Source: an uncultured Verrucomicrobia subdivision 3 bacterium (GTDB lineage: Bacteria; Verrucomicrobiota; Verrucomicrobiia; Limisphaerales; UBA11358). From it: a stretch of 64,000 bases of DNA. A program made the position numbers and the translations under genes. The stretch spans positions 1 to 64,000 of the forward strand of contig CAIQWB010000105.1 of assembly GCA_903875465.1 (NCBI GenBank), in the 5' to 3' direction. The notes beneath the pieces are model-generated. The model was not told the origin of the DNA and made no database searches. It saw only the letters and a list, made by a program, of their open reading frames with translations. Of the stretch, positions 2-10,082 are shown one piece after another. Every line of letters begins with the position of its first letter. Within the stretch, counting starts at the first letter, position 1.

Positions 2-3000
2 AACAATCTCAGTGGCGCCACGCCGGTCTTCTTCATCGCCTCACTTGCCCCCGGTATCGGGGCCAATTTCATGGGCAGTTTTATCGCGCCGACCAATTGC
101 TCCGTCACCAGCCTTGCCACCGTCACCGGCCAGAGTTATTGTGGCGGCACCATCACGAACACGGTGGCTTCCACCTGTGCGATTAATACGACCCCCGCAC
201 TGGCCGTTACGCAAACCTGTCCGGCCAGCCCGACCGCGCCGGGTGCCTTGCTGACGTATACGGGGACGGTCACCAATACCGGTAACATTACGCTGACCAA
301 CATTGTGGTGTTGAACACCCTGAGTGGCGGCACCCCGGTGTTTGCAACGTTGACCCTCGCCCCGGGCGAGGGCGCCGGTTACACCGGCAGTTATCTGACC
401 CCCACGAATTGTTCCACCACCAGCATTTCGACCGCCTCCGGGCGGAGTGTCTGCGGGATCGCCGTTACGAATGCAGTGAGCGCCACCTGTGCGATTGCCA
501 CCACGCCCGCGCTGGCCATGACCCAGAACTGCCCCGCGCTACCGACCGTGCCGGGCGCGCTGCTGACGTATTCCGGCACCATTACCAATGTGGGTAACAT
601 TGCCCTGACCAATGTGGTGGTCTTGAATAATCTCAGCGGGGCCACCCCGGTTTATACGGTGAGCAGCCTGGCTCCGGGCGCGGGCGCCAGTTTCACCGGC
701 AGTTACCTGACCCCGACCAATTGCTCCACCACGAGCACTGCCACCGGTTCCGCGCGGAGTGTTTGCGGGGTGGCCATCACCAATTCAGTCACCACCACCT
801 GTGCGATTATCACCGCGCCGGCCCTTAAATTGACGCAAACTTGCCCGGCCCTGCCAACGGTGCCCGGCGCGCTGTTGACCTATAGCGGCACCATTACCAA
901 CACCGGCAACATCACCCTCACCAATGTGGTGGTCCTGAATGATCAAAGCGGTGCCACCCCGGTTTTCACGGCCGCAAGTTTGGCCCCGGGGGTGGGTGCC
1001 AGTTTTACGGGCAGCTACCTGACCCCGACCAATTGCTCGGTGACCAGCACCAGCACCGGCACGGGCCAGAGCCTGTGCGGTGTGGCGGTCACGAATAGCG
1101 TGAGTTCCTCCTGTGCCATCACGACCACGCCCGGGCTGGTCATCGTCCAGGCCTGCCCGGATGTTCCGGTGATCCCCGGTGGTTTGTTCACGTACAGCGG
1201 ATCGATCAGCAATGCCGGTAACATCACGCTGACGAATGTGGTGGTCTTGAACAGCCTCAGTGGCGCGACCCCGCTCCTCACCATTCCCACCCTGGCCCCC
1301 AGCGCCACCGCCAGCTTTAGCGGCAGTTACCTGGCACCGACCAACTGCACCACCACGAGCACTTCCACGGTTACCGGCCGGAGCCTATGCGGGATTGGCA
1401 CCACTAGCCCCGTGACCATCACGTGCGCCATTAACACCACGCCGGTACTGAATGTGACCGAAACCTGTCCGATCCTGCCGACGGTTCCCGGCGCGTTGCT
1501 GACGTACACTGGCACGGTGACCAATGCGGGTAACATTACCCTCACCAACATTGTGGTGCTGAACAACCTGAGCGGCAGCACCCCGGTGCTTAAGGTGGCC
1601 ACCCTCGCCCCCGGCGCGGGTGCCAGTTTCAGCGGCAGTTACCTGACGCCGACCAACTGTTCCACCACGAGCACGGCGACCGCCAGTGGCCAGAGCGTGT
1701 GCGGCATCCCCATCACCAACTCGGTGAGTGCCACCTGTGCCATCATCACCACGCCCGCCCTCAAGGTTACGGAAAACTGCCCGGCCCTTGCCGTGGCCCC
1801 CGGTGCGCTGCTGATCTACAGTGGCACGGTGACCAACACCGGTAACATTCCGCTCACCAATGTGGTGGTGCTGAACAACCTCAGTGGCACCACGCCGGTC
1901 TTCACCGCGGCCTATCTGGCCCCGGGAGTGGGCGCGAGTTTCACCGGCAGTTACCTGGCCCCCACGAATTGCTCCTCCACGAGCACGGCGACCGCCATCG
2001 GCGTCAGCATCTGCGGCGTGGCCACCACCAACGCGGCAACCGCCACCTGCGCCCTTGTCACCACCCCGGCCATCGTCATCACCCAAGCCTGCCCGGTGAA
2101 TCCAGTCATCCCTGGTGGTCTGCTCACCTACAGTGGTTCGGTGAGCAATGCCGGCAACATCCTGCTCACCAACGTGGTGGTGCTGAACAACCTCAGCGGG
2201 GCTACCCCGGTCTTCACCGTGCTGGCGCTTGCACCCGGAGCGGTGACCAACTTCACCGGGAGTTACCTCGCACCAACGAACTGCGCTTCCACCAGCACTT
2301 CGACCGTCACTGGCCGGAGCCTCTGCGGCATCGCGGTCACGAACTCGGCCACGACCACCTGCACGATCCTGACGACCCCGGCCATCCGCGTGGTGCAATA
2401 CTGTCCCAGCACACCCGGGTTGCCGGGCGGCCTGCTGACCTACAGCGGCACGGTTAGCAATGCCGGGAACATTACGCTCACGAACATCATCGTGATCAGC
2501 GACCGGCCGGCACCGAATACGGTCATCTTCACCCTCGCTGCCCTGGCACCGGGGGCCACGGCCAAATTCAGCGGCAGTTACCTGACACCGCTCAATTGTT
2601 GCGTGGTGTGGAGCGATGTGGTGGCCAGTGGCCAGGGTTGCGCGGGCGTGACCGTCACCGACTCGTACACCCGCACTTGCAGTGTGTTCACCCAGCCGGC
2701 CATTGTGGTCACCAAGGTTTGCACCGCCGGCATCCTCCGGCCGGGGGATCTCCTCACCTACAGTGGCAGCGTGAGCAATGCCGGCAATATCACCTTGATT
2801 AATGTCACCGTCACGGATGCCCAGACCCCGGGCAACCCGCCGCTCCCCGCCCCGATTGATCTCGCGCCGGGCGAATCCGAGACGTTCTTCGGCTCCTACA
2901 TGGTGCCACCGGACTTCTGCGGCAGCGACACTATCATTGCCAGTGGCATGGATGTTTGCACCTACATGCCCGCGGTGAGCAGCCTCACCACCACCTGTCC

Positions 3001-3850
3001 CATCACCACGGCCCCCCGCATCATCGTGACGAAGAATTGTCCGTTGCTGCCCACGCCCCGGGGCGGGCTCTACACCTACAGCGGCTCCGTCAGCAATGCG
3101 GGCAATGTCTCGCTGATGAATGTCTATGTGGTGAACAACCAGCCGACGAACAACACGCCGGTCATCGGACCGCTCACCCTGGCCCCCGGCACGGTGGTCA
3201 ATTTCACCAACAGCTACGTCGCCCCGACCTGCTGCTGCCTGATCATTGACACTTTGACCGCCCGCGGCGCGGATCACTGCACCGGCACCAATGTCACCGA
3301 CACCTCCACGGCGGTTTGTCCGCTGCTGACCCTCCCGGGGATCGCCGTGGTGGAATATTGCCCGGCCAACGCCATTCCCATGGGCAGCCTGTTCCTGTTC
3401 AGCGGCTACGTCACCAACACCGGCGACGTCGTGCTGACCAACGTTTACGTCTACGGTCCATTGGGCACCAACCAGACCGTCCTCGGTCCGATCCAGCTCG
3501 CTCCCGGGGAAGCCGCGACCTACTTCGGAACCTACACTGCGGTGTTTAACACCCGGGCCGTGACCGTGACGGCCCTCGGTCAGGAAACGTGTGGCGGCAC
3601 CCTGGCCACCAACAGTGCCAGTTGCCCGGTGGTCACCACCCCAGTTTTTGCCCGCGGCAATGGCACCAATAGCATCACCTTCCCCACGGCCACCGGGAAG
3701 ACCTACACGGTGCAATACAAGAACCACCTGTTGGATCCCACCTGGACCAACTTGTCCACCATCCCCGGCACCGGGGCGAACCAGACCATTACGGATAGCA
3801 CCAGCGCCGGCCAGCCGACCCGGTTTTACCGCGTGATGATCGCCCCGTAA
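2..3850 (+). CDS. Giant secreted protein of DUF11-like Cys-containing repeats (5' end outside window)
   Basis: The reading frame is open from the window edge, so the N-terminus is missing; 1282 residues are visible. Almost all of it is a tandem repeat of about 104 residues (312 bp): one partial copy at the edge and 11 further copies. A unit runs through a CP motif, a PGxLLTYSG strand, NxGNITLTNVVVLN, a LAPG turn, a GSYLxPTNC motif, a xCG motif and a TCAI/TTP strand, so most copies carry about four conserved Cys that could form disulfides outside the cell. This resembles the DUF11/'conserved repeat' beta-sandwich family of surface proteins. The first seven copies are nearly alike and the last four diverge. 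The last 70 residues form a separate domain ending in FYRVMIAP, shared with other exported proteins in this window. Probable role is a surface stalk or adhesin; that is inferred from the architecture alone. Confidence 0.8.
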   Translation, partial: NNLSGATPVFFIASLAPGIGANFMGSFIAPTNCSVTSLATVTGQSYCGGTITNTVASTCAINTTPALAVTQTCPASPTAPGALLTYTGTVTNTGNITLTNIVVLNTLSGGTPVFATLTLAPGEGAGYTGSYLTPTNCSTTSISTASGRSVCGIAVTNAVSATCAIATTPALAMTQNCPALPTVPGALLTYSGTITNVGNIALTNVVVLNNLSGATPVYTVSSLAPGAGASFTGSYLTPTNCSTTSTATGSARSVCGVAITNSVTTTCAIITAPALKLTQTCPALPTVPGALLTYSGTITNTGNITLTNVVVLNDQSGATPVFTAASLAPGVGASFTGSYLTPTNCSVTSTSTGTGQSLCGVAVTNSVSSSCAITTTPGLVIVQACPDVPVIPGGLFTYSGSISNAGNITLTNVVVLNSLSGATPLLTIPTLAPSATASFSGSYLAPTNCTTTSTSTVTGRSLCGIGTTSPVTITCAINTTPVLNVTETCPILPTVPGALLTYTGTVTNAGNITLTNIVVLNNLSGSTPVLKVATLAPGAGASFSGSYLTPTNCSTTSTATASGQSVCGIPITNSVSATCAIITTPALKVTENCPALAVAPGALLIYSGTVTNTGNIPLTNVVVLNNLSGTTPVFTAAYLAPGVGASFTGSYLAPTNCSSTSTATAIGVSICGVATTNAATATCALVTTPAIVITQACPVNPVIPGGLLTYSGSVSNAGNILLTNVVVLNNLSGATPVFTVLALAPGAVTNFTGSYLAPTNCASTSTSTVTGRSLCGIAVTNSATTTCTILTTPAIRVVQYCPSTPGLPGGLLTYSGTVSNAGNITLTNIIVISDRPAPNTVIFTLAALAPGATAKFSGSYLTPLNCCVVWSDVVASGQGCAGVTVTDSYTRTCSVFTQPAIVVTKVCTAGILRPGDLLTYSGSVSNAGNITLINVTVTDAQTPGNPPLPAPIDLAPGESETFFGSYMVPPDFCGSDTIIASGMDVCTYMPAVSSLTTTCPITTAPRIIVTKNCPLLPTPRGGLYTYSGSVSNAGNVSLMNVYVVNNQPTNNTPVIGPLTLAPGTVVNFTNSYVAPTCCCLIIDTLTARGADHCTGTNVTDTSTAVCPLLTLPGIAVVEYCPANAIPMGSLFLFSGYVTNTGDVVLTNVYVYGPLGTNQTVLGPIQLAPGEAATYFGTYTAVFNTRAVTVTALGQETCGGTLATNSASCPVVTTPVFARGNGTNSITFPTATGKTYTVQYKNHLLDPTWTNLSTIPGTGANQTITDSTSAGQPTRFYRVMIAP

Positions 3851-5885: not shown

Positions 5886-8084
5886 TCACTTCATTGTCAT
5901 GCCGAGATTTTGCATGAGGAACGCGTAAGCGTCCGCCCGTTCGGCGACCACCTGGCTGGTGGTGGGACCGGAACCGTGGCCGGTGTCCAGCCGCACCCGT
6001 AACAGCACGGGCGCGGGGCCGGCCTGCGCGGCTTGCAGCGCGGCGGCAAATTTGAAGGAGTGGGCGGGCATCACGCGCGCGTCGTGGTCGCCAGTGATCA
6101 CCATGGTGGCTGGATAGTGGGTGCCCGGGCGCACGTTGTGATACGGCGAGTAAGCGCGCAGCGCCGGGAAATCCTCCGGGTTATGCGGCACCCCGTAATC
6201 GCCCACCCAGCCGGCCCCCTGGCCAAACTGGTCAAACCGCAGCATGTCCATCACCCCCACATAGGCCAGCGCCGCCCCATAAAGATCGGGGCGCTGGGTC
6301 ACGCAAGCGCCCACCAGCAGGCCGCCGTTCGAGCCGCCCTGGATCGCCAGCTTGGGCGTGGACGTATAACCCTGCGCAATCAGCCATTCGGCCGCGCTGA
6401 TGAAGTCGTCGAAGACCAACTGCTTGTGGGCGCGAATCGCCTGCCGGTGCCAGGCTTCGCCATATTCACCCCCACCGCGCAGGTTGGCCACCGCGAAGAT
6501 CCCGCCCCGCTCCAGCCAGACCAGCCGGGTGGCGTCAAACCCCGGCAGCACGGAGATGCCAAAGCCGCCGTAGCCATAGAGCACGGTCGGATTGCTGCCG
6601 TCGAGGTGGATGCCTTTTTTGTACACGAGGGTCAGGGGAATCCGGGTGCCATCCCGGGAGGGATAAAACACCTGTTTGGTTTCCAGGGTGCGGGTGTCGA
6701 ACGCCACGGTGGGCGCGCGGTAAACTGTGCTCGTGCCGGACGCCAGGTCCAGCCGGAACAGCGTGGGTGGGGTGACCATGTCCGTGAAGGAGTAAAAGGT
6801 GTCCCGGTCCTCCGCCGCGCCGCCAAACCCCCCGGCAACGCCCCGGCCCGGCAGCACCACCGCCCGTTCGCGCCGGCCATCCAAACCGTAAAGCGCCACC
6901 TGGCTGGCGACATCGTGCAGCGACCGCACAACCAGGTGGTGACCCACCAGCGTGACGCTGCCTGAGTCGACATCCAAGGTGTCCGGTCCCTGCGGCACCA
7001 CTTCCCGCCAGGCGGGGTCGCCCGGGGCGGCCGGGTCAATCGCCACCACCCGGCCCCGGGGTGCCTGCGCCGTGGTCTCGAAAAACAGCCGGCCCTGGTC
7101 GGCGCCCACATACAGGTAATTGTTGGCGAACCCCTCCGCCAGCGCCCGGGCGGGCGCATTGGATTGCTGGAGGTCGAGCACATAGAGATTTTCCAACCCC
7201 TTGTCCCCCACCTCGCCTTCCCCCGCCCGGAGCACGAGCCAGCGGCCATCCGGGGTGAGGTGCGGCTGGAACTGCCAGTCGCGATGATCCGGCCGCGCAT
7301 ACAATTGGCGGTCGGCCGTGGGCGGGGTGCCGAAAACATGCTGGTAAATCGCATCGCCCAGATCGCGCACGCGGAGTTCCTCGCCGGGCGCCGGGGCCGG
7401 GAAGGCGCTGTAATACACGCTGTGACTGTCCCGGGCAAACACGGGTGAGTAATATTTGGTCCAACGTAATACGTCGGCCCGGTCCTGGCCGGAAGCCAGG
7501 TCGCGGAAATGCCAGTCGGTCCAGTCCGATCCGCCGTGCGACACCCCGTAGGCCAGGGTTCCGCCATCCGGACTGACCACATAACCCACCACGGCCAGGG
7601 AGCCATTCGTCGCCAGCGCATTGGGATCAAACGCCACCGTGGGGGTGCCCTCGCGCCCGACGCTGGTGAACAACACGCTCTGCGGTTGCAGCCCGCTGTT
7701 ATGGGTGTAGAAATAGTGTGCTCCCTGATGGAAGGGCATCCCGAATTTCTCAAAATTAATGACTGCGGACAACCGCTGTTTGAGCACTTCCCGGACGGGG
7801 ATGGCGGCCAGATAATCATCCGTGAGCCGCGACTCCGCCGCGACCCAGGTTCGTGTTTCCGGCGTGTCCAGGTGTTCCAGCCAGCGATAGGGATCGGCGA
7901 CCGGCACGCCGTTATAGTCGTCCATCACCGGATCGCGCCGGGCGGCGGGATAAGCGCCCAGCGGCGCCGCCCCGGCCGGGGCGGCCAGGCGCAGCAGCAG
8001 GGCGGCCAGTAAAAAGCTCCGGGCCGCGCGGCGGCAGCCGTGGGCGGTGGAGGAAGCACCAAGAATGCATAATCCGCTTACCAT
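5886..8084 (-). CDS. Prolyl oligopeptidase family serine peptidase (S9A), exported
   Basis: 732 residues, the usual length for prolyl oligopeptidases. A hydrophobic segment ending APAGAA (residues about 22-40) looks like a signal peptide. The N-terminal motif DDYNGVPVADPYRWLE is the classic start of S9A enzymes. A seven-bladed propeller follows, then the alpha/beta-hydrolase domain with YGYGGFG, the nucleophile elbow GGSNGG (Ser about 584), the Asp in GDHDARV (about 663) and the His in DTGHGSG (about 703). It would cleave short peptides after proline, probably in the periplasm. It lies downstream of the transposase gene on the same strand, across a 357-base gap holding three hairpins. Confidence 0.92.
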   Translation of the reverse strand: MVSGLCILGASSTAHGCRRAARSFLLAALLLRLAAPAGAAPLGAYPAARRDPVMDDYNGVPVADPYRWLEHLDTPETRTWVAAESRLTDDYLAAIPVREVLKQRLSAVINFEKFGMPFHQGAHYFYTHNSGLQPQSVLFTSVGREGTPTVAFDPNALATNGSLAVVGYVVSPDGGTLAYGVSHGGSDWTDWHFRDLASGQDRADVLRWTKYYSPVFARDSHSVYYSAFPAPAPGEELRVRDLGDAIYQHVFGTPPTADRQLYARPDHRDWQFQPHLTPDGRWLVLRAGEGEVGDKGLENLYVLDLQQSNAPARALAEGFANNYLYVGADQGRLFFETTAQAPRGRVVAIDPAAPGDPAWREVVPQGPDTLDVDSGSVTLVGHHLVVRSLHDVASQVALYGLDGRRERAVVLPGRGVAGGFGGAAEDRDTFYSFTDMVTPPTLFRLDLASGTSTVYRAPTVAFDTRTLETKQVFYPSRDGTRIPLTLVYKKGIHLDGSNPTVLYGYGGFGISVLPGFDATRLVWLERGGIFAVANLRGGGEYGEAWHRQAIRAHKQLVFDDFISAAEWLIAQGYTSTPKLAIQGGSNGGLLVGACVTQRPDLYGAALAYVGVMDMLRFDQFGQGAGWVGDYGVPHNPEDFPALRAYSPYHNVRPGTHYPATMVITGDHDARVMPAHSFKFAAALQAAQAGPAPVLLRVRLDTGHGSGPTTSQVVAERADAYAFLMQNLGMTMK

Positions 8085-8273
8085 GGCGGCAGCTTACCGC
8101 CGGCCGGGTTCGCGTGGCAAGCAGAACGGGCATACTTTGGAGGGGCCTCCCCCGGGCGCTTGGGCTGTCGGCATAACGTTAGCCCTGCCCAAACCCTGGT
8201 TTGATTCCCCCTGCCATTCCATCCCGCCGGATATACTGTGCGGCCATGCGCAACGCGGTGAACCGGGTGGCCA

Positions 8274-8370
8274 CAACCCCGTTGGGGTTGAAGAACCCGG
8301 CGCACGTTAACCGAAGGTAGGCCCGCTGATGGGCAACCTTGGGCTGGAGGGCGGAAGCCCGTTGGGCTTC
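8274..8370. repeat. Three hairpins beside the transposase (REP-like)
   Basis: Hairpin 1 is CAACCCC-GTT-GGGGTTG (8274-8290). Hairpin 3 is GAAGCCC-GTT-GGGCTTC (8354-8370), with the same geometry (7-bp arms, GTT loop) and a start exactly 80 bases later. Between them AAGGT/ACCTT and GCCC/GGGC (8314-8340) make a third stem. The rest of the 8085-8441 gap contains no convincing gene. The position next to a RAYT-type transposase suggests a REP-like palindrome set mobilised by that enzyme; this is inference. Confidence 0.55.
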
Positions 8371-8441
8371 AGGAAGGGGGACATGGCGGCAGCAATGGGT
8401 GGTTGTCGACAAATGCAGGAATTCGAAAACCAGCACGAAAA

Positions 8442-8864
8442 TCAGTCCCAAACATACTTCTCATCCCATTCAATTTCATGTTTGCGGAGGAGTGCCCGTA
8501 ATTCATCTTGAAAACTCATTTTCTGGTGAGGTTCCTCCTGTCCGGCGATGTACTGCTTGACCTGCTCAAGATTGGACTGGCTCACGCTGAAATCCGCATA
8601 GCCACCCTGCCACTCAAAACCGGCATAATCCCGGCTTTGCGCTTTTAACCAGCCATTTGAAACACGTTTCAACTCCTTGACCCAATCCGCCTGAGTCATT
8701 GTCCTGCCCAGCCGCGCCAGAATATGCACGTGATCCTCCACCCCGCCGACCAAAAGGGACGGGCACTCAAGAGCATTGGAAATTCCGCCCAGTTGTGCAT
8801 GCAACGCCTCGCGGAGCGCTTGGTCGCGGAGAAACGGACGCCGTTCCTTGGTGGAAAATACCAA
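8442..8864 (-). CDS. RAYT / IS200-like Y1 transposase, abnormal start
   Basis: A Y1_Tnp (REP-associated tyrosine transposase) protein. The metal-binding motif DHVHIL and the Tyr of EQVKQYIAGQEE (the candidate nucleophile) are present, and it ends in the family-typical WDEKYVWD. From the TTG at 8864 it is 140 residues. Family similarity clearly continues upstream in the same frame (QSLSAVYIH before LVFSTKERRP), but no ATG, GTG or other TTG occurs there before the TGA at 8901-8903, which is also the stop codon of the aldo/keto reductase gene. Family members commonly start MPQSL, so the normal initiator seems lost. It could start at TTG, at ATT (8898-8900), by readthrough, or be a decaying gene. 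Confidence 0.75.
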   Translation of the reverse strand: MVFSTKERRPFLRDQALREALHAQLGGISNALECPSLLVGGVEDHVHILARLGRTMTQADWVKELKRVSNGWLKAQSRDYAGFEWQGGYADFSVSQSNLEQVKQYIAGQEEPHQKMSFQDELRALLRKHEIEWDEKYVWD

Positions 8865-8900
8865 GTGGATATAAACGGCAGACAGGGATTGCCGGTAAAT

Positions 8901-10082
8901 TCAAGTCGCGCTGAGGCGTTGGACGGGTTTTTCGAAGAGCATCCGGTGGGTTTCGGCGAGGATGGCGGGGATGCGGTCGGCAAAGGGGCTGCCGCGCAGG
9001 GCGCCGGTGAGGTCGAGTTCGGCGAGTTTGGCGGCGTTTTCGCCGGGGAACCAGTGCTCGGCCTGGCCGAGCAGGTTGTACCGCATTTTGCCCCAGGCGG
9101 TCAAATCCAGGGATTTGGCGTAGGTCCAGAGGCGGAGGATTTCGGAGATATTCACCTGGCCGGGCACGTCGCCGAAATTCGGCAGGCCCTCAGACCAGCG
9201 CTGATGCCAGTCGGCCCCGACGACGCGGTCAATTTCGGCCCGCAAGCGCTGTTCGATGGGGGCGATGGTCGCGGGAATGCGGTCGTAATGGGCCAGGGCT
9301 TTGATGTGTTCGTCAAAGTCACTGGGGCGGGCGGCGCCGAGGCTCAGGGTGTGGACTTCCGGCCGGGCCAGGCAATAGAGGTCGTTAAATTCCATCGGGG
9401 ACAGGGGGGCGCAGAGGTCCACGAGTTTTTGGGGCGGTTCGTAGAGCTTGCCGCCTTTGTCGTTCGGGCTGATGATGAAGACGCCCATGTCGTGCCGGCG
9501 GGCGGCCAGGACGGCGTTCCAATTCAGGTCATTGACAAAATACCAGTGGAGATTCACGTAATCGAACTCGCCGGTGTGGATGGCGGCCTCGATGATGTCG
9601 GGGGTGGCATGGGTGGAAAAGCCGATGAAGCGCACCCGGCCCTCTTTCTGCAACTGGCGCGCGGCGGCGACGCAGCCATTTTTGCCCACGGACCAGTCGA
9701 GCAATTCCTGGTTGTTAATGCCATGCAAGGAGAGCAATTCCACATGGTCCAGTTTCAAATAGGCCATGGAGGTCTCGAAGGTTTCCAGAAATTCCTTCGC
9801 GGTGGCCTTGGGGGCGACCTTGGTTTGGACAATGAGCTGTTCGCGGGGCAGGGTGGGGAGCACTTTCCCGAGCTGCATTTCGGAGGAGCCGTAACCGCGG
9901 GCCGTTTCGATGTGATTGATGCCGAGTGCCAGCGAGCGGTGGATGGTGGCCTCGAGGTTGGCTTGGTTGGCCTGGGGGATGTCCTTGGGGTCCACATCCT
10001 GCCATTTATACTGGTAACGCATGCCCCCGCAGGAGAAGACCGGCATGGACAGTTCAGTGCGGCCAAAGCGGCGATATTTCAT
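8901..10082 (-). CDS. Aldo/keto reductase
   Basis: 393 residues from the ATG at 10082, chosen because [11 protein letters not shown] is the usual family start; ATGs at 10094 and further upstream (10196) are possible. The N-terminal two thirds form the aldo/keto reductase barrel: [29 protein letters not shown] and LLSLHG supply the acid, Tyr, Lys and His positions of the active-site tetrad. The acid is Glu where most relatives have Asp. A C-terminal extension of about 100 residues (after residue 290) is seen in some large bacterial members. It should reduce an aldehyde or ketone with NAD(P)H in the cytoplasm; the substrate is unknown. It is the upstream neighbour, in the same reading frame, of the transposase gene. 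Confidence 0.85.

Follow-up and report, generated by a model that had tools for sequence, protein, structure and literature searches.

A three-stem repeat module beside a decayed tnpA gene in an uncultured Verrucomicrobia bacterium and its probable relation to a single-strand transposase

Results

The hairpin locus in the window

The question raised by this locus is whether two matched hairpins located next to a putative RAYT gene are, as proposed in the initial annotation, the REP-like target of that enzyme and the mark of its mobile unit. The window, that is, the whole analyzed stretch of 64,000 nucleotides from an uncultured Verrucomicrobia subdivision 3 bacterium (assembly GCA_903875465.1), contains the hairpins HP1 (CAACCCC-GTT-GGGGTTG, plus strand, 8274-8290) and HP2 (GAAGCCC-GTT-GGGCTTC, plus strand, 8354-8370), both with 7-bp arms and a GTT loop and with a start-to-start distance of 80 bases, and between them a middle stem with an internal loop (plus strand, 8311-8343). 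Both the sequence and the predicted folds confirm this arrangement, which had been described from the letters only. HP1 and HP2 are present in the minimum-energy single-stranded (ss) DNA structure of either strand; the middle stem is present in the minimum-energy structure of the minus strand and in the centroid structure of the plus strand, the minimum-energy structure of the latter pairing its outer part differently. The z-scores of the ssDNA folds are −2.10 and −2.23 for the two strands, with 6 and 7 out of 200 shuffled sequences folding equally well.

Perfect 7-bp-arm hairpins with a GTT loop are represented in the window by HP1 and HP2 only, and a first-order Markov null model gives 0.03 such hairpins per window and two within 100 bp in none of 60 null windows. 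The simplest explanation, chance hairpins in G+C-rich DNA, draws on the fact that short hairpins are not rare here, since there are 13 perfect 7-bp-arm hairpins with any 3-nt loop in the window against 5.85 in the null. It is nevertheless refuted by the genome-wide hairpin-pair search suggested in the initial annotation: the pattern CCCGTTGGG-N{62,80}-CCCGTTGGG occurs at 29 places in the host genome and at none for the reversed control, so the hairpins are not unique in the genome; uniqueness was the outcome named beforehand as speaking against the proposal. Considering also the covariation and the oriented association with tnpA genes described below, a chance origin is extremely improbable.

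Elsewhere in the window, positions 27-3444 are occupied by about ten copies of a tandem repeat of approximately 312-318 bp, apparently a repetitive protein-coding region.

A family of three-stem modules

With positions 8200-8450 of the window as the query, BLAST retrieved 63 host-genome matches at E values up to 1. Thirty of the host-genome copies were used to build the covariance model R1, which recognizes a complete module HP1 - middle stem - HP2 in the window (plus strand, 8271-8369; 88.2 bits, E 2.9e-15, the window sequence being among the 30 building copies), which is intergenic and present as a single copy. R1 has at least 67 matches in the host genome, the count being a minimum as scoring covered 137 of the 4231 first-look candidates, and 24 out of 29 relatives possess matches as well, in modest numbers of 0-30 modules per relative.

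According to the aligned copies, the module is about 97 nt long and consists of HP1 (CAACCCCGTTGGGGTTG), the middle stem (CCCAGGGTAG...CAACCCTGGGCT in the family consensus and CCGAAGGTAG...CAACCTTGGGCT in the window) and HP2 (AATCCCGTTGGGATT). The window hairpins and stem are one copy of this folding unit of about 100 letters, which recurs in the host and its relatives. Within the middle stem, the motif GTAG occupies part of the 5′ arm and of the internal loop (plus strand, 8317-8320 in the window) and is found on the module's own strand in 209 of 226 aligned modules versus 18 of 226 on the opposite strand; at the foot of HP1 or HP2 it is absent from the consensus of the same 226 modules. Modules can also be chained via a shared hairpin with an overlap of about 15 bases, as in L036 (3502-3592/3578-3674) and L041 (1040-1136/1121-1213).

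All three stems covary. Cells changed on both sides of a pair number 118 in one alignment of further matches, compared with 15.2 after shuffling, and 228 compared with 47.9 in the other, with both-side changes seen at 16 and 15 of the 20 pairs, respectively, although both alignments were fitted to the structure of the model and, being made with it, lean towards the R1 structure. Alignment A4 comprises 125 rows, two of which come from locus L308, an exact duplicate of L114.

Modules carried by an ISL3-type MITE in the host genome

Out of 59 host-genome modules examined, 47 are accompanied by the arms of a miniature element (MITE) and 12 are free. The MITE is 349 bp long in copy L045 (921-1269) and has terminal repeats of about 22 bp, GGTTCCTCGCTGTTTTCGGTGG, of which 65 ends with up to 3 mismatches are found in the host genome and none in the control. 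One inverted pair of such ends (C1:36484-36505 / C1:37790-37811) brackets an ISL3 transposase gene (L328:1539-2804; PF01610, 200 bits), and the MITE is probably moved by an ISL3 transposase. The commonest host modules belong to two subtypes, A and B, arranged head-to-head inside the MITE whenever they occur together. In 11 MITE copies, 8-bp target duplications are exact in four cases, match at 7 of 8 bases in three and are absent in four, and several of the exact ones share one site in another repeat, so the insertions are not all separate events.

That other repeat carries the MITE in several copies at the same point, with GGCTGGGA duplicated (L045:882-920 and 1270-1411), and L043:2896-3071 looks like the same repeat without the MITE. 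Several host contigs begin or end inside the MITE, e.g. at C14:1, the end of C59, C137:1 and C138:1, so the assembly is probably interrupted at the MITE and undercounts its copies.

The abundance of modules in the host genome mainly reflects this MITE carrying a module pair, and the spread of the 47 modules inside it is therefore not evidence for TnpA. Host-genome copy number had been considered as proof of TnpA mobility and was rejected as such after the MITE was found. These data raise the possibility that the modules in general are passengers of a DDE transposon, spread inside the ISL3-type MITE and adjacent to tnpA genes by coincidence. For most of the copies examined in the host genome, the passenger account stands. 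It does not extend to the module of the window, around which there are no terminal repeats with 8-bp duplications, or to the modules flanking the tnpA paralogue on contig C53, all of which are located outside the MITE.

Mirrored module pairs in the relatives

Pairs were surveyed in 60 loci fetched around modules among the matches listed, 56 of them from relatives and four from the host. All 35 close pairs found there (34 in relatives and one in the host) are head-to-head, i.e. '-/+' with HP1 inward, and the spacer measures 14-45 bp in 28 of them and is longer in three, the modules overlapping in the remaining four. Module midpoints fall inside ORFs of at least 150 aa in 20 of 96 cases, compared with 247 of 360 control points. 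The idea that the hairpins occur as intergenic pairs thus holds for the family, whose close pairs are mirrored modules lying mostly outside genes, but not for the window copy, which is a single module.

In the relatives, the similarity between copies stops at the outer foot of HP2. The outer flanks of 92 modules contain no common sequence past the last hairpin pair and display no visible target preference outside HP2, except for a C or G extending the hairpin. A flank match of at least 3 bases is absent in 32 of the 35 pairs, compared with 85% in the null, so target duplications are not seen. Pairs without a gene can outnumber the gene, as exemplified by the relative G023 with seven close pairs and one tnpA of the clades described below. 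In architecture, such gene-less inverted pairs resemble REPINs, with a repeat that is far larger.

Association of the modules with tnpA genes

The TnpA set includes 50 related proteins from the host and its relatives, 11 of which had been labeled as module-flanked prior to tree building. These 11 fall into two clades within a larger, poorly resolved group; the tree needs 2 changes to account for the label, compared with 10.1 on average after shuffling. Ten of them possess a '-' module upstream and a '+' module downstream within 450 bp, the exception being the window copy. Beyond these, L108, belonging to the same clade as the window gene, has a module upstream (43.8 bits) and none downstream; downstream modules (49.1 and 38 bits) are present at L146, which belongs to neither clade, and L134 shows matches of about 30 bits on either side; some other TnpA genes have weaker matches and the remainder none. 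As a control, the same search at E values up to 0.05 revealed no module in any of 13 Y1 loci having both NHFH/NHYH and YVH[LF]NP motifs.

The rule was then applied to outside loci, namely the best 80 of 455 loci from a protein scan, reduced to 71 by dropping nine exact duplicates of discovery loci. A '-' module upstream together with a '+' module downstream within 400 bp is present in 51 of the 71, and at least one module within the same distance in 68, with none found in L289, L290 and L298; 20 loci lack the two-sided arrangement, some of them through contig ends. By record title, the loci following the rule belong to Limisphaerales, Pedosphaera, other Verrucomicrobia, Planctomycetes, Acidobacteria, Hydrogenedentota and Candidatus Accumulibacter, although they are not phylogenetically independent, several MAGs giving two loci each, and many are MAG contigs which may be misbinned. 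The head-to-head rule is weaker around these tnpA genes than in the 60 fetched loci, as 45 close pairs include 29 '-/+', 12 '+/-', three '+/+' and one '-/-'.

The oriented association in loci from several phyla, the outer flanks without common sequence and the lack of visible target duplications in the relatives all speak against the passenger account as a general one, and it is unlikely that the proximity of modules and tnpA is incidental. Relatives with an intact TnpA of the two clades contain on average 12.7 modules (n = 9) and those without it 5.0 (n = 20; Mann-Whitney p 0.006, phylogeny-uncorrected), and 15 of the latter 20 still hold some modules.

Downstream modules often begin at the stop codon of tnpA and upstream ones are often located 9-30 bases before its start. 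Modules abutting start and stop codons in this way, as well as the covariation of the stems, would be expected if they functioned as RNA elements that terminate transcription, form mRNA ends or regulate the translation of tnpA, rather than as transposition substrates. The covariation cannot decide between RNA and DNA since ssDNA would form the same structure. A terminator, however, needs no mirror-image partner across the gene, gene-less inverted pairs occur at loci fetched regardless of tnpA, and positions 7900-9000 of the window gave no matches among 4227 Rfam families at E values up to 5. All this makes a role confined to RNA highly unlikely, and the module is probably the DNA that the single-strand transposase recognizes and spreads.

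Comparison with known systems

In the window, TnpA, an HUH/Tyr single-strand transposase, is encoded on the minus strand (8442-8897) by a decayed gene, of which the ORF 8442-8864 matches PF01797 with 62.8 bits. The nearest among PDB sequences in a profile search is the IS608 transposase 2a6m (E 2.1e-07). A paralogue on contig C53 (L036, 3723-4178) with modules on both sides shares 89% identity with the window TnpA. The available part of the TnpA_Y1 survey by Quentin et al. (2018; PMC6006769) describes subclass 1.2 as having the motifs Y---Q--HH, DH[IV]H and WQ and a length of about 148 aa, and lists it as lacking REPs and as occurring predominantly in Cyanobacteria and Bacteroidetes. The TnpA proteins considered here resemble this subclass in the DHVH, WQ and Y---Q--HH motifs, the length of about 150 aa, a conserved C-terminal tail and the low copy number. 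The full signature is present in the C53 copy; the window copy has PH in place of HH. Unlike subclass 1.2 as presented in that part of the survey, the genes are flanked by repeats and found mostly in records titled Verrucomicrobia.

Similarity to REPtrons and REPINs with their RAYTs (TnpA_REP, class 2) lies in a low-copy Y1 HUH gene flanked by palindromic intergenic repeats and in dispersed inverted pairs with short spacers and no target duplication seen, the window copy having only one module. In this respect the suggestion of a REP-like target of the adjacent enzyme is supported, as the modules are a dispersed family flanking IS200-like/RAYT-like genes across genera and, judging by record titles, phyla. 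The enzyme itself is not a canonical RAYT. The Tyr motif is Y---Q--HH and not the Y---NP of canonical RAYTs, and all four proteins compared with the NCBIfam RAYT model NF047646 score 15.8-23 bits against a cut-off of 80. The repeat is different too: the unit of about 97 nt with three stems contrasts with a single palindrome of 20-40 nt in REPtrons and REPINs, and GTAG is placed within the middle stem as described above, whereas canonical REPs have GT[AG]G at the hairpin foot.

IS200/IS605 elements such as IS608 and ISDra2 provide the nearest solved structures and the nearest NCBIfam model (NF033573; 49.8, 43.1, 49.7 and, in one relative, 57.1 bits against a cut-off of 55) and also have hairpins at the element ends. 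The ends of IS608 are single hairpins in the same orientation. In contrast, the ends described here are large inverted modules, and gene-less pairs can be more numerous than the gene. Nor do the two host tnpA copies, with the identity given above, resemble a recently active multicopy IS.

In the available part of the paper by Di Nocera et al. (2013; PMC3733652), Y1 transposase genes are reported to have long inverted repeats on both sides, and dispersed dimers of these repeats are described as well, features shared by our modules and the TIRtron/TIRYT systems. REP dimers contained in larger palindromes are also reported there, so elements of this general kind are already known. A module of three stems is absent from the available text of that paper, and the present family may overlap its repeats, those of R. 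baltica and O. terrae included. A further difference is that, in PMC6006769, subclass 2.1 with its C-terminal HTH accounts for 20 of 26 TIRYTs. No recognizable description of the module or of subclass 1.2 repeats was found in the literature searched, which mostly lay outside subscription journals, supplements and figures; the terms RAYT and verrucomicrobi do not occur in the RepRanger paper (PMC12306157).

The flanks of 38 other subclass-1.2-like TnpA genes were compared as well. Inverted repeats exceed the 99% level of mismatched flank pairs in 8 of the 38, a weak test because direct matches exceed it more often (15 of 38) and several module-flanked genes (L031, L148, L141 and L139) fall below it. 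Because the matches there are both direct and inverted, the similar-looking repeats beside these 38 genes are no more than suggestive. By eye, the flanks of L097, L107, L120, L125, L133 and L134 have a hairpin - middle stem - hairpin appearance with different sequences, and in several of these six TAG stands at the foot of the middle stem.

Discussion

Proposed element and its movement

The window feature is, quite probably, one terminal module of an IS200-like, REPtron-like element moved as ssDNA by TnpA. A complete element of this type would consist of an inverted module, tnpA and a second module, with both HP1 hairpins facing the gene and a total length of about 0.65-0.7 kb; its gene-less version would be two inverted modules around a short spacer, of the size found in most of the close pairs. 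When the element becomes single-stranded, e.g. at a replication fork, each module would fold into hairpin, middle stem and hairpin. By analogy with IS200/IS605 and RAYT enzymes, a TnpA dimer would then bind the folded modules and cut beside them with its Tyr, and the unit would move as ssDNA without target duplication, in cis for the gene-bearing unit or in trans for the gene-less pairs.

We are somewhat inclined to a broader interpretation, in which these repeats constitute an undescribed REP-like system of subclass-1.2-type TnpA_Y1 enzymes, each with a cognate triple-stem module. Diverged clades would share one grammar while their sequences differ, which would mean co-evolution of enzyme and module in Verrucomicrobiota, Planctomycetota, Acidobacteriota and others; the modules would spread as mirrored pairs, one of which was captured by the ISL3 MITE and amplified a second way. 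If this is true, a repeat partner is provided for a transposase group left without one in the available part of the PMC6006769 survey, and REP-like elements come to include a three-stem unit besides the single palindrome. How Y1 transposases read the shape of ssDNA could then be tested directly on the many enzyme-module pairs existing in nature. The host genome, in which a REP-like pair is carried by a DDE transposon, calls for caution in using REP counts as evidence of RAYT activity.

The window locus as a decayed remnant

Mirrored pairs with or without tnpA are consistent with the suggestion that the hairpins mark a mobile unit; the window itself has one module and a decayed gene, and the view of it as an intact mobile unit is contradicted. 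At the position of the ATG in the paralogue, the window tnpA has TAC (8895-8897), with an in-frame stop two codons ahead of the missing start, and the first usable start is TTG at 8864. The Tyr motif reads YIAGQEEPH, compared with YIAGQEEHH in the C53 copy, EEHH being nearly invariant in the alignment. Without the ATG and with a Tyr motif departing from HH, the gene is no mark of an intact mobile unit.

The sole module is situated on the 3′ side of the gene, 73 bp from its 3′ end, with HP2 and not HP1 facing the gene, which reverses the usual orientation, and upstream of the window tnpA no module was found. The nearest downstream module has the window-like orientation in 5 of the 54 outside loci having one, and a module placed like that of the window is found in L141 as part of an extra pair.

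The neighbors of the locus are a gene for a peptidase and one for an aldo/keto reductase, the tnpA frame directly following the stop codon of the latter (8901-8903). Comparison with ten relatives revealed no clean empty site; the similarity does not extend beyond the vicinity of the reductase stop codon, and even the closest relative (L226) has another gene next to the reductase than the window, so the exact excision point was not obtained. The locus is best read as a decayed remnant, and the single module and start-less tnpA between the peptidase and reductase genes would be what is left of the element. Another decayed element is represented by L162 (G012:C94:22145-25700), where a like tnpA is divided between two frames and adjoins an inverted module pair.
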